Of a stretch of 48,010 nucleotides of DNA, positions 13,685-42,011 are shown piece by piece. Position 1 is the stretch's first letter. Each line of letters starts with the position of its first letter. Both the position numbers and the translations under genes were made by a program. The DNA is taken from positions 1 through 48,010 of the forward strand of contig JALEKC010000133.1 in assembly GCA_022769325.1 (NCBI GenBank). Reading direction: 5' to 3'. This DNA is from Eubacterium sp. (GTDB lineage: Bacteria > Bacillota > Clostridia > Lachnospirales > Lachnospiraceae). The notes under the pieces were generated by a model. The model did not search any database. It was given only the letters and a program-made list of their open reading frames with translations, and was not told the origin of the DNA.

Positions 13685-14299
13685 TTAATATAAGCGGAAC
13701 AAGCCTACAACCGTTCCTAAAATAACCACTTCATTGACATAAATAGGATCCATAGAATCGTTTTCCGGTTGCAGACGGTAGCGTCCCTCTTCTTTATAAT
13801 AGGTTTTAACCGTGGCGGAGTCATCCACCAGCGCAACTACAATATCTCCATTTTTAGCGGTGGAAGTCTGACGAACAATGACTTTATCCCCATCATGAAT
13901 TCCGATATTGATCATGCTTTCTCCACGGACATTTAACATAAATAGATTTCCACTGGGAAGCTCATCTGCTAAAATCGGAAAATAGCCACTGATATTTTGC
14001 TCAGCAAAGATGGGCTGACCGGCAGCAACTTCCCCAATGACAGGGATGTTTCGCATCTCTTTTCGGGTAAGATTAAAATTGTCATCCACGATTTCAATGG
14101 CACGGGGTTTCGTAGGGTCTCTTCGAATGTATCCGTTTTTTTCCAATGTTTCCAAATGAGAATGAACCGAAGAGGTTGATTTGAGATGAACGGCATTACA
14201 AATTTCCCGCACGGCAGGCGGATATCCTTTATTTATAATCTCTTCCTTGATATATTCAAGAATTTCACTTTGTTTTGCAGAAATACGACCATTTCCCAT
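13685..14299 (-). CDS. lexA: LexA SOS repressor
   Basis: MGNGRISAKQSEILEYIKEEIINKGYPPAVREIC HTH, VAAGQPIFA cleavage region, GESMINIGIHDGD and KNGDIVVALV catalytic region. ORF opens at 14383 but the conserved start is 14299. Confidence 0.96.
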   Translation of the reverse strand: MGNGRISAKQSEILEYIKEEIINKGYPPAVREICNAVHLKSTSSVHSHLETLEKNGYIRRDPTKPRAIEIVDDNFNLTRKEMRNIPVIGEVAAGQPIFAEQNISGYFPILADELPSGNLFMLNVRGESMINIGIHDGDKVIVRQTSTAKNGDIVVALVDDSATVKTYYKEEGRYRLQPENDSMDPIYVNEVVILGTVVGLFRLY

Positions 14300-14335: not shown

Positions 14336-14393
14336 CAAACAATTGTTTGTTTTTATAGTATCATAGTTTTTCTTAAATGTCAAACATTTGTTC
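14336..14393 (-). promoter_or_regulatory. lexA promoter with two LexA-box-like operators
   Basis: Minus strand: TTGACA (14378-14383), 17 bp, TACTAT (14355-14360). Box 1 GAACAAATGTTTG at 14381-14393 overlaps the -35; box 2 CAAACAATTGTTTG at 14336-14349 downstream of the -10. Confidence 0.8.
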
Positions 14394-14423
14394 TGATAAA
14401 AGTAAAAATCTTTGAAATTATAG

Positions 14424-36505: not shown

Positions 36506-37438
36506 ATGAAACGAAAATATCAATATGAGGTGGAGCAGGAGGCAGAAAATATGCGTTTGGATCAGTATATTACCAAGCATTGTATGGATCTGTCTCGTTC
36601 TTATATTCAAAAATTGATTCAAGAGGAAAGGGTTACCATCAATGAACATATACAGGTTAAAAGCAAAACACCGGTTCAAACAGGAGATAAAATTGAGGTT
36701 TCTTTGCCGACTCCGAAAGAATTAAATATTCAACCACAAAATATTCCTCTTGATATTTTATATGAAGATGATGATTTGTTAATTGTCAATAAACCCAAAG
36801 GCATGGTTGTGCATCCGGCACCGGGGCATTATGAAGATACACTTGTCAATGCAATCTTGTATCATTGTAAAGACAATTTGTCAGGAATTAATGGAGTGCT
36901 TCGTCCGGGAATTGTTCATCGAATTGATAAAGATACCACGGGCGCTTTGATTGTATGTAAAAATGATAAATCCCATCAGAAAATAGCTGACCAGTTGCGA
37001 GCTCATACCATTACCAGAAGTTATCGAGCAATTGTATATAATAATTTTTCTGAAGAGGAAGGAACAATTAATCAACCTATTGGAAGACATCCAACAAATC
37101 GTAAAAGAAGAATGGTTACAGAGAAAAATAGTAAAGAAGCAATTACACATTATAAGGTTTTAGATCATTTGAATCATAAATTCAATTATATTGAATGTCA
37201 CCTGGAAACAGGAAGAACACATCAAATACGTGTTCATATGTCATATATAGGGCATCCGCTTTTGGGAGATGAAGTATATGGTCCGGCAAATTCTAAATAT
37301 AAAAATTTGCAAGGACAAACATTACATGCGGCAACCATAGGATTTGTTCATCCTACAACTGAAGAATACATGGAATTTGCAGCACCGATTCCGGATTATT
37401 TTGAAAAATTACTAAAAACATTAGGCCAAAATTGTTGA
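36506..37438 (+). CDS. RluD-family 23S rRNA pseudouridine synthase
   Basis: S4 domain, LLIVNKPKGMVVHPAPGHYEDTLVNAILYH, PGIVHRIDKDTTGALIVCKN. Confidence 0.95.
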   Translation: MKRKYQYEVEQEAENMRLDQYITKHCMDLSRSYIQKLIQEERVTINEHIQVKSKTPVQTGDKIEVSLPTPKELNIQPQNIPLDILYEDDDLLIVNKPKGMVVHPAPGHYEDTLVNAILYHCKDNLSGINGVLRPGIVHRIDKDTTGALIVCKNDKSHQKIADQLRAHTITRSYRAIVYNNFSEEEGTINQPIGRHPTNRKRRMVTEKNSKEAITHYKVLDHLNHKFNYIECHLETGRTHQIRVHMSYIGHPLLGDEVYGPANSKYKNLQGQTLHAATIGFVHPTTEEYMEFAAPIPDYFEKLLKTLGQNC

Positions 37439-38058: not shown

Positions 38059-38094
38059 GATACATAAGCAAGGATAAAGGAGGTTGATTTGGCT

Positions 38095-39156
38095 ATGGCT
38101 TCAAAGAATCGAGTTACTTATCATGAGGAAAATGTTCATTCTAACACATTGAAATTACGGCAGGTTTTAGATACGATGCCGCGATTTAGCAAAGATTATT
38201 TTCGTGCCATCGAACCAAATACATCGGCAAAGACAAGAATATCTTATGTATATGATATTCGTTTGTTTTTCCGTTTTTTGATTCAAACAAATCCTTATTT
38301 TCAAAACAAAACGATTAAAGATATCCAATTACAGGATTTAGAGAAATTACAGGCTGTTGATATTGAGGAATATTTAGAATATTTGAAGCTTTATGAGGAT
38401 GAGGATGGAAAAACGCATACCAATAAGGAACAAGGTCTGCATCGAAAACTTGCCGCTTTAAGAAGCTTTTATGCTTATTATTATAAACGGGAATTGATAT
38501 CCAGCAATCCAACATTAATTGTTGATATGCCTAAATTACATAAAAAGGAAATTATTCGACTGGAATATGATGAAGTTGCCGAGTTGCTGGATTATGTGGA
38601 ACATGGTGGCGAAAAGTTATCCGGCATGAAAAAGGTATATTTTGAAAAGAATAAAGTACGAAATCTGGCATTGATTACTCTTCTACTTGGAACAGGTATT
38701 CGTGTTTCCGAATGTGTAGGTTTGGATCTAGAGGATGTGGATTTTAAAAATAATCGTATCCGTATTATTCGCAAAGGCGGAAAGGAAGATTTTGTCTATT
38801 TTGGTACCGAAGTTGCTGATGCTTTGAGTCAATATATCGAACAAAGAAATGCTATCGTTGCCAAAGAAGGTCATGAGCATGCTCTTTTTCTTTCTACTCA
38901 AAAGCGTCGTATTTGTGTACAATCAGTAGAAAATCTAGTGACGGACTATGCCAGCCAGGTTACTTCTATAAAACATATTACCCCACATAAGCTTAGGAGT
39001 ACTTACGGTACGTCATTATATCGCGAAACAAGTGATATTTACCTGGTTGCAGAGGTTCTGGGGCATAATGATGTGAATACAACCAGAAAGCATTATGCAG
39101 CACTGGGTGAAGATCGGAAACGTATGGCGGCAAAGGCAGTGACATTACGGAAATAA
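38095..39156 (+). CDS. Tyrosine recombinase (XerC/XerD-like)
   Basis: LLLGTGIRVSECVGLDLEDVDF, HKLRSTYGTSLYRET, VAEVLGHNDVNTTRKHYAAL: the R-K-H-R-H-Y catalytic set appears intact. Confidence 0.92.
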   Translation: MASKNRVTYHEENVHSNTLKLRQVLDTMPRFSKDYFRAIEPNTSAKTRISYVYDIRLFFRFLIQTNPYFQNKTIKDIQLQDLEKLQAVDIEEYLEYLKLYEDEDGKTHTNKEQGLHRKLAALRSFYAYYYKRELISSNPTLIVDMPKLHKKEIIRLEYDEVAELLDYVEHGGEKLSGMKKVYFEKNKVRNLALITLLLGTGIRVSECVGLDLEDVDFKNNRIRIIRKGGKEDFVYFGTEVADALSQYIEQRNAIVAKEGHEHALFLSTQKRRICVQSVENLVTDYASQVTSIKHITPHKLRSTYGTSLYRETSDIYLVAEVLGHNDVNTTRKHYAALGEDRKRMAAKAVTLRK

Positions 39157-39245: not shown

Positions 39246-41432
39246 CTATCGTCCGGTTGGATAAGTTGCAAAAATTTCATTGATAGTATCATAGATAACC
39301 TTTGCTGAATTTGCTTGGAAAGCAGAATTGGTTAAACTATAATAATCTTTGCTTCCGGACAAAAATCCAAGTTCAATTAAGACGGCAGGAACCGTATTAT
39401 GTTTGGTAACATAATAACCGGCAGTTTTTACACCACGATTCGAAGTTCCCAATCGAGTAACAAGGTTATTTTTAAATAGTGTTGCAATTGCCTTGCTGGT
39501 TACTCCGGAAAAACTGCTTGAATTATTGTTGGTTGAATAATATACCTCCGTCCCGTTTGCACTTGAACTGGAAGCTGAATTCATGTGAAGACTCACAAAA
39601 ATGTCAGCACCCACAGTACTAGCAAAAGAAGCTCGTTTAGCTAATGTAATAAATACATCAGAAGTTCTGGTCCAATAAACTTTTGTATCTGGTGCATTTG
39701 ATGAAAAATAGTTTTTCATCAAGGTATATATTATTTTGTGATTCAAGTCTTTTTCCTTTGTTCCCTTGTTGGTTGCCCCAGAATCATATCCACCGTGGCC
39801 GGCATCCAAAACAACAATATTCTTGTAAATACTTCTGGGATCCCCCACAGAAACAACAAAAGAATCTGATTTTTCATAAATCTTATATCCTTGTAGTTTG
39901 GATGTAGTAACGGATATCACCGTATTACCATTGGATAATTCCGTATTTACACTTGTTATTACATTACTATTTATGGCAATTGGGTTTTGATTATAAAAAT
40001 CAATATGATTGCCAGGAATAATTATTTTAAACATTTTACTTTGATATAAATCTTCGTTCTTTATTGAATTAATGGTAGTACCTGTTGGTTTGCTGAATTT
40101 TAATGCATAATTTCCAACATATTCTCCCATTATGTTAATGGTAAGAATTCCATCTAATGAAGAATAAGCAAAATCAGACTCTCCAAAGCAGGCAATATTT
40201 ATGGTTATGGAGTCATTCCCATCTTCTATCACCTCAAATTTTTCAATGGAAGAAACAAATTTAGTAAAAGAAAATTGCTCCAGCAGATACTTTGAGGTTT
40301 TTGGAATGGAGATAGAAATTACTTTTCCATTTCGGGAAACAGTTACCTGATCCATAATTTCTGTTTTGGTTCCTTTAATTTCAAATGAAATGCAATCAAT
40401 GGATGGATTATAAGTTGCTTTTGCATTTGTAATATAATTGATATTGGAGTCGGTGGCTTTCTTGGAATCTCCAACCCAATCAAAATATACCAAATCATGG
40501 GCAGAAATCAATATTTTTTTCTTATCCCATTTATAAGAATAACCCAGCGCAGTTAAAACTTTCTTTGCAGGAATACATAAAATGTCTTTTTTTGTATCTT
40601 TGCGGGTGACAATATACATCGGTGTATTATTATTGGAAGATATATTGTTTATGTTAATGGAGGGTTCATTTAACACAAGTTTTACTTTCTTATTGGTTGC
40701 TGTATTTTCTACTTCTAAGGTTTGAGTATCCTCATAATATTTGTAATTTAAGCCCATGATTTTGTTCAATACTTCTTCAGCAGGGACATACATGGCACCG
40801 GATAATTTGAAAATTGGCATGGAAGCAAGCTTGTTATTTTTATCATTATAAGTAAAATAATTTCCAAACTGAGTAGTCTTTGCATCTTTGCCCTGATAAG
40901 AATACATAAATTGCTTCGTGATTGTTATGGTAGATTTGGAAGCTTTATATTGAAATCCAAGATGCTGACATAAAAATTTTGCAGGAACTAAAATAGCGGA
41001 AGTTTTTTTCTTTACATACCGGATACTAACAGGTGCTGTATGTAATCGATATTTTTTACCATTGACATACGCATTTTTACTTCCGACTGTGAGGGTCACT
41101 TTAACTCCGTTTCTTGAAAATGTTAATCGCTTTTTAGAAGATTGATAGGTAGTCTTAACTTTTAGTCCTTTTTGAAATACATCTTTATAAGGCACCATTC
41201 TTGTACCATTTATAGTGAGCCCTTTACGAGTACTCTTAGTAATGGTCTTATTCTGATATTTTACAATGGACTGTGTTTTTTTATAATAACTGGTTTTTCC
41301 ATTTAATTTTACTTTCAGTGTGGCTGCATCACTAGATGAAGCAGGAATTAGGATAAGTCCTAACAATAAAAAGGAAAAAAATAGAAATGGAAGGATTCTT
41401 TTGCATTTTTTTGTCATATTGGTTCTTTTCAT
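39246..41432 (-). CDS. Secreted N-acetylmuramoyl-L-alanine amidase (Amidase_3) with copper-amine-oxidase-like N-terminal repeats
   Basis: Signal-like N-terminus, VKLNGKTSYYKKT...GTRMVPYKDVF repeats, C-terminal VVLDAGHGGYDSGATNKGTKEKDLNHKI, FVSLHMNSA, VLIELGFLSG. Start 41432 preferred. Confidence 0.88.
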   Translation of the reverse strand: MKRTNMTKKCKRILPFLFFSFLLLGLILIPASSSDAATLKVKLNGKTSYYKKTQSIVKYQNKTITKSTRKGLTINGTRMVPYKDVFQKGLKVKTTYQSSKKRLTFSRNGVKVTLTVGSKNAYVNGKKYRLHTAPVSIRYVKKKTSAILVPAKFLCQHLGFQYKASKSTITITKQFMYSYQGKDAKTTQFGNYFTYNDKNNKLASMPIFKLSGAMYVPAEEVLNKIMGLNYKYYEDTQTLEVENTATNKKVKLVLNEPSININNISSNNNTPMYIVTRKDTKKDILCIPAKKVLTALGYSYKWDKKKILISAHDLVYFDWVGDSKKATDSNINYITNAKATYNPSIDCISFEIKGTKTEIMDQVTVSRNGKVISISIPKTSKYLLEQFSFTKFVSSIEKFEVIEDGNDSITINIACFGESDFAYSSLDGILTINIMGEYVGNYALKFSKPTGTTINSIKNEDLYQSKMFKIIIPGNHIDFYNQNPIAINSNVITSVNTELSNGNTVISVTTSKLQGYKIYEKSDSFVVSVGDPRSIYKNIVVLDAGHGGYDSGATNKGTKEKDLNHKIIYTLMKNYFSSNAPDTKVYWTRTSDVFITLAKRASFASTVGADIFVSLHMNSASSSSANGTEVYYSTNNNSSSFSGVTSKAIATLFKNNLVTRLGTSNRGVKTAGYYVTKHNTVPAVLIELGFLSGSKDYYSLTNSAFQANSAKVIYDTINEIFATYPTGR

Positions 41433-41576
41433 GTAAATTCGCCCCTTTAAATATATTGTACTTTTTATGTGATAATTGTAACAGTCTTTCATGACACAAT
41501 TATGGCATGGGAAAAATCCAATGCTTTATAGGCTCAAAAAGAATGAAAGGGACAGTAATCCAATAATAAATGAAAA

Positions 41577-41900
41577 CTAAAAGGCAGAACTATCTTCATA
41601 AATTGGTATAATGAGATAATTTCCCGCATAAATTGTATCTGCTCCAGAAATATGATTGATGCTTTTGATTTCATCTACATAGGCATATAATTCTTCTTCA
41701 GAAGCACTGGCTCGATGTGCTTTTGCAATGGACCAAACAGAATCTCCCTCATAAACCAAAACGGATTCATAACGCGAAATGGCAGAAGGATCATCTTTGA
41801 CAGTCTTTGCATTTATATTCTGGAATAGGATAAAGCATGCAAATAAAATGACTGTGATTAAAAGGGAAAGTACAATTTGAAAACGAATTTTTTTAGTCAT
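41577..41900 (-). CDS. Small TM + LysM protein, candidate YneA-type SOS cell division inhibitor
   Basis: 107 aa: N-terminal TM (IVLSLLITVILFACFILF) then VLVYEGDSVWSIAKAHRASASEEELYAYVDEIKSINHISGADTIYAGNYLIIPI; LexA-like boxes in its promoter. Confidence 0.75.
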   Translation of the reverse strand: MTKKIRFQIVLSLLITVILFACFILFQNINAKTVKDDPSAISRYESVLVYEGDSVWSIAKAHRASASEEELYAYVDEIKSINHISGADTIYAGNYLIIPIYEDSSAF

Positions 41901-41937
41901 GGCAAATCACTCCTTGTATCAATTATGACAATATAAT

Positions 41938-41963
41938 CGAACAAACAATCCGAACAAACAATC
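41938..41963. repeat. Two tandem copies of 13-bp CGAACAAACAATC
   Basis: CGAACAAACAATC CGAACAAACAATC immediately abutting the LexA-like box at 41964. Confidence 0.85.
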
Positions 41964-42011
41964 CGAACATCTGTTTACATGTATCATACTATACGAACAA
42001 GCGTTTGTCAA
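41964..42011 (-). promoter_or_regulatory. Promoter of YneA-like gene with two LexA-box-like operators
   Basis: Minus strand: TTGACA (42006-42011), 17 bp, TATGAT (41983-41988). Plus-strand boxes CGAACAAGCGTTTG (41994-42007) and CGAACATCTGTTTA (41964-41977). Confidence 0.8.

Follow-up and report, generated by a model that had tools for sequence, protein, structure and literature searches.

A putative YneA-type SOS cell division checkpoint gene separated from lexA in a genus of the Lachnospiraceae

The yneA-like gene and its product

The window (the whole 48,010-nucleotide stretch of DNA analysed) carries a small yneA-like gene whose promoter region holds two putative LexA boxes, and a lexA gene with a box pair of its own. 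The relevant features are as follows.

13685..14299, minus strand: lexA; the Ala-Gly cleavage site is intact and the S24 peptidase Ser and Lys are present, as read in the sequence
14336..14394, minus strand: putative LexA box pair of lexA itself, CAAACAATTGTTTG at 14336-14349 and, on the minus strand, AGAACAAATGTTTG at 14381-14394
38089..39156, plus strand: tyrosine recombinase gene, the putative ancestral neighbour of yneA, marking its original site
39246..41492, minus strand: Amidase_3 cell wall amidase gene, directly downstream of yneA
41577..41900, minus strand: yneA-like gene encoding 107 amino acids, with an N-terminal transmembrane helix (residues 2-27), a linker and a LysM domain (residues 49-99)
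41938..41963, minus strand: directly duplicated 13-bp segment of the 5' leader that repeats half-sites of the boxes (coding strand, TGTTCG)
41964..41977, minus strand: putative LexA box 2, CGAACATCTGTTTA (coding strand, TAAACAGATGTTCG), 5 bp past the -10 element
41983..42011, minus strand: core promoter TTGACA-17-TATGAT, with TTGACA at 42011-42006 and TATGAT at 41988-41983
41994..42007, minus strand: putative LexA box 1, CGAACAAGCGTTTG (coding strand, CAAACGCTTGTTCG), overlapping the -35 element at its 3' end and the spacer

The yneA-like reading frame starts with ATG and has AAGGAG 5' of it. Its product had been described as a 107-residue transmembrane and LysM protein, and this description held: residues 49-99 match the Pfam LysM family (PF01476, E=3.5e-7), and the AlphaFold2 model (mean pLDDT 87.5, pTM 0.61) consists of an N-terminal helix at residues 2-27 and a LysM fold of beta-alpha-alpha-beta topology. 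LysM domains ranked top when the model was compared with the PDB by Foldseek (E 0.03, probability 1.0), and a sequence-based search of solved structures returned no match. The protein thus has the architecture of the YneA type, an N-terminal transmembrane helix followed by one LysM domain in about 100 residues, with both helix and fold predicted.

The best NCBIfam match of the protein is YneA (NF010723; E=4e-12, 45.9 bits). This score lies below the 60-bit cut-off of the strict YneA equivalog, and the protein is therefore placed in the wider YneA-type group, outside the equivalog; two relatives that stand divergent from lexA exceed the cut-off (73.9 bits at locus L117 and 63.2 bits at locus L115). 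The YneA model is matched by all 20 members of the family alignment and any other model by at most 11, and the match of the window protein to SosA (NF041581) was insignificant (E=0.33). Across the order, YneA profile matches occur in 258 of 294 genomes, some of them being other LysM proteins.

Bacillus subtilis YneA binds less peptidoglycan and loses its toxicity when it carries the substitution D46A, T47A or I81A (PMC13396833). The counterparts by motif position in the window protein are D53, S54 and I90, which sit in the best-conserved stretch of the family alignment: D53 is invariant, position 54 is Thr in 15, Ser in four and Asn in one of the 20 members, and I90 is kept in at least 90%. 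The peptidoglycan-binding residues of a YneA-type LysM domain are consequently present, S54 being a conservative Thr-to-Ser replacement. The transmembrane sequences of these yneA-like proteins are very divergent.

Separation of yneA from lexA

The stated distance of about 27 kb to lexA was accurate (27.3 kb), and lexA lies between polC and mutS. Divergence from lexA is typical of YneA synteny, without being a functional requirement, and is not found for the window gene. In all 10 other families of the order in which both a yneA-like gene and lexA were found, the two are divergent, with 178-390 bp between the matches. In other genera of the same family, a divergent yneA-like gene lies within 1.5 kb at 24 of 28 lexA loci, and in two of the four exceptions it is about 1.8 and 9.5 kb from lexA, divergent even so. 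Within the genus of the window, yneA is beside lexA at none of 30 lexA loci, and congeners with both genes on one contig have them 24-35 kb apart.

Sister genera (loci L203, L206 and L209-L211) share the order yggS-sepF-(divIVA)-lspA-rluD-recombinase-yneA, followed by the divergent lexA. The same order is preserved in the window as yggS-sepF-divIVA-lspA-rluD-(blaI)-recombinase-(amidase)-yneA (SepF, DivIVA and the recombinase were assigned by Pfam, the other names by reading the sequences). Because the sepF-divIVA-lspA-rluD-recombinase-yneA order is conserved, the simplest explanation is a move of lexA, with yneA remaining in place. An ancestral yneA would have been divergent from lexA, which would then have relocated between polC and mutS, each gene keeping its own operator pair. 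Several congeners gave no yneA match, and in most of these the neighbouring recombinase gene is likewise missing or broken, which fits either assembly gaps or joint loss.

In several families of the order, yneA has a tyrosine recombinase gene as a conserved neighbour (loci L111, L112, L115 and L117, and the window). In Bacillus, the neighbour of yneA is the serine recombinase gene yneB. In two congeners, the interval between rpoZ and yneA holds a weakly MutS-like stretch (23-24% identity; L123:4553-5272 and L125:8371-8841), which suggests an inserted gene.

The amidase gene had also been correctly placed next to yneA. It additionally encodes Cu_amine_oxidN1 domains, the yneA-amidase order is kept in the six congeneric loci examined, and no terminator-like site was found between the two genes in the window. 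This arrangement, together with the generic nature of a transmembrane plus LysM architecture, would suit a LexA-regulated, peptidoglycan-binding envelope protein that does not stop division and instead protects or marks the wall or works with the amidase. Such a role is improbable, as the 20 family members match YneA specifically and not another LysM family, and the relatives share the lexA-divergent synteny known for YneA from B. subtilis and Clostridium thermocellum.

Promoter and putative LexA operators

The promoter of yneA matches the consensus at 11 of 12 positions, the best of the region, and the two LexA-type boxes are located where the original prediction had put them, one over the -35 element and spacer and the other past the -10 element, where it coincides with the expected transcription start. 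The short motif GAACN4GTTY occurs in the window at close to the chance rate (four found, 3.1 expected), and the yneA boxes therefore count by being complete, paired and on a promoter. As a genome-wide predictor, the short motif was rejected (40 forward matches and 98 in the reversed control); only complete or paired boxes were counted, single weak boxes carrying little meaning. The longer CGAACN4GTTY was found twice in the window with 0.43 expected, a count reached by nine of 100 shuffles, while exact copies of the complete CGAACN4GTTYG number only two in the 2.28-Mb genome, one in the yneA promoter and the other at a Y-family polymerase gene. A pair as good as that in the 200 bp upstream of yneA arose in none of 300 shuffles. 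A further window box at 36666 (GAACCGGTGTTT) falls within the open reading frame at 36506-37438 and was taken as a chance match.

Adjoining box 2, the 13-bp sequence CGAACAAACAATC (plus strand) is present twice in tandem, giving CGAAC/GTTCG half-sites 13 bp apart. The duplication could possibly provide extra weak LexA contacts.

Boxes of the same type occur at other genes of the source genome. The box of the Y-family (IMS) polymerase gene is just 5' of its likely start, recA has one just past its -10 element, the lexA pair is kept in congeners, usually 44-54 bp apart, and two LexA-like boxes lie around the promoter of a radical-SAM gene (locus L060, G000:C13:14377-14390), which is likely an SOS gene. 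From these occurrences at recA, lexA, the polymerase gene and the radical-SAM gene, we infer that the CGAAC-N4-GTTYG-type motif is the LexA box of this genome.

Conservation of the operators was assessed in the window and 29 orthologues (28 of loci L026-L054, plus L111). Paired good boxes lie within 200 bp of the start in the window and in every one of the 29 orthologue promoters read, and for each of them the observed box-pair sum was reached by none of 300 shuffles. All 23 promoters read from the genus, counting that of the window, combine TTGACA with a TANNNT -10 element at a spacing of 17 bp; in all 23, box 1 begins 4 bp into the -35 element and box 2 lies 4-8 bp past the -10 element. Among 74 upstream regions of other genes at six congeneric loci, one (L125) scored as high as yneA, and this region proved to be the yneA operator itself, leaving none of 73 true controls at that level. 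LexA operators in the promoter, a trait of the YneA type, are thus predicted by both sequence and conservation.

A sporulation LysM membrane protein of the SpoIIIM or coat assembly type, with incidental boxes, is highly improbable: SpoIIIM has a similar topology (PMC13396833) and the SafA model weakly matches the window protein (0.0032), but the YneA model far outscores SafA, and a box pair in constant position in all 23 promoters is no accident. Extra LexA-like proteins occur in several relatives, yet there is very little chance that the boxes bind a second S24-family or phage repressor recognizing a similar palindrome, as the same boxes are found at lexA itself and recA, and elsewhere the orthologue and lexA share one intergenic region.

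Proposed function and relation to known systems

The window gene is very probably (about 0.88) the YneA-type SOS cell division checkpoint gene of its genus. This reading, which agrees with the original prediction, draws on the sequence family, the predicted structure, the promoter, the conservation of the operators and the lexA-divergent orthologues; from it we infer that LexA binds at yneA, that the SOS response induces the gene, and that its product targets FtsW and arrests division.

In the SOS response, RecA triggers the self-cleavage of LexA. In undamaged cells, LexA dimers on both operators, at the -35/spacer and the start region, would keep the yneA promoter shut. DNA damage would lead to RecA filaments, LexA self-cleavage and transcription of yneA, and the product would insert into the membrane via its N-terminal helix and display its LysM domain outside. 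If the protein acts as YneA does in B. subtilis, the helix would dock on FtsW, the septal synthase, while the LysM domain would bind peptidoglycan, so that septum synthesis would be halted until repair is done. B. subtilis YneA binds FtsW through its transmembrane helix and uses its LysM domain to block the synthesis of septal peptidoglycan, and the divisome is not dispersed (PMC13396833). The source genome has three genes of the FtsW/RodA/SpoVE family. A lexA mutant of Clostridioides difficile is filamentous (PMC4689574). It is doubtful, though conceivable, that after the departure of lexA the rigid private operators of yneA also place the downstream Amidase_3 gene under LexA; if so, SOS would govern a brake on septum synthesis and a wall hydrolase via one transcript.

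Staphylococcus SosA is comparable as a small SOS-induced division inhibitor anchored in the membrane, and is not known to have a LysM domain. The likeness to B. subtilis YneA is closer and comprises small size, one transmembrane helix and one extracellular LysM domain, a promoter with LexA operators, a lexA-linked ancestry and conserved peptidoglycan-binding residues. The window protein differs from B. subtilis YneA in its lower score (45.9 versus 60 bits) and divergent transmembrane sequence, and the gene, in this genus, is not adjacent to lexA and has a tyrosine recombinase and an amidase gene as neighbours. The YneA-like protein Clo1313_1450 of C. thermocellum is encoded divergently from lexA with a conserved LexA site (PMC8457756). 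With this clostridial precedent already described, the kind is known; whereas Clo1313_1450 shares its intergenic region with lexA, yneA of the window is 27 kb from lexA and the two genes have separate operator pairs. A search for literature on LexA in this family found nothing relevant. Going by the literature searched, what is new is that yneA and lexA are split at the level of a genus, that the operators keep a strict geometry, that the gene is spread across the family, and that the evidence points to lexA as the one that moved.

The finding would widen the range of the YneA-type checkpoint to a broad clostridial family and could allow annotators to name many small "LysM domain" proteins. 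The genus would represent a natural experiment in which a shared divergent LexA-controlled promoter region was split into two independent ones, and these anaerobes are predicted to form filaments upon DNA damage.
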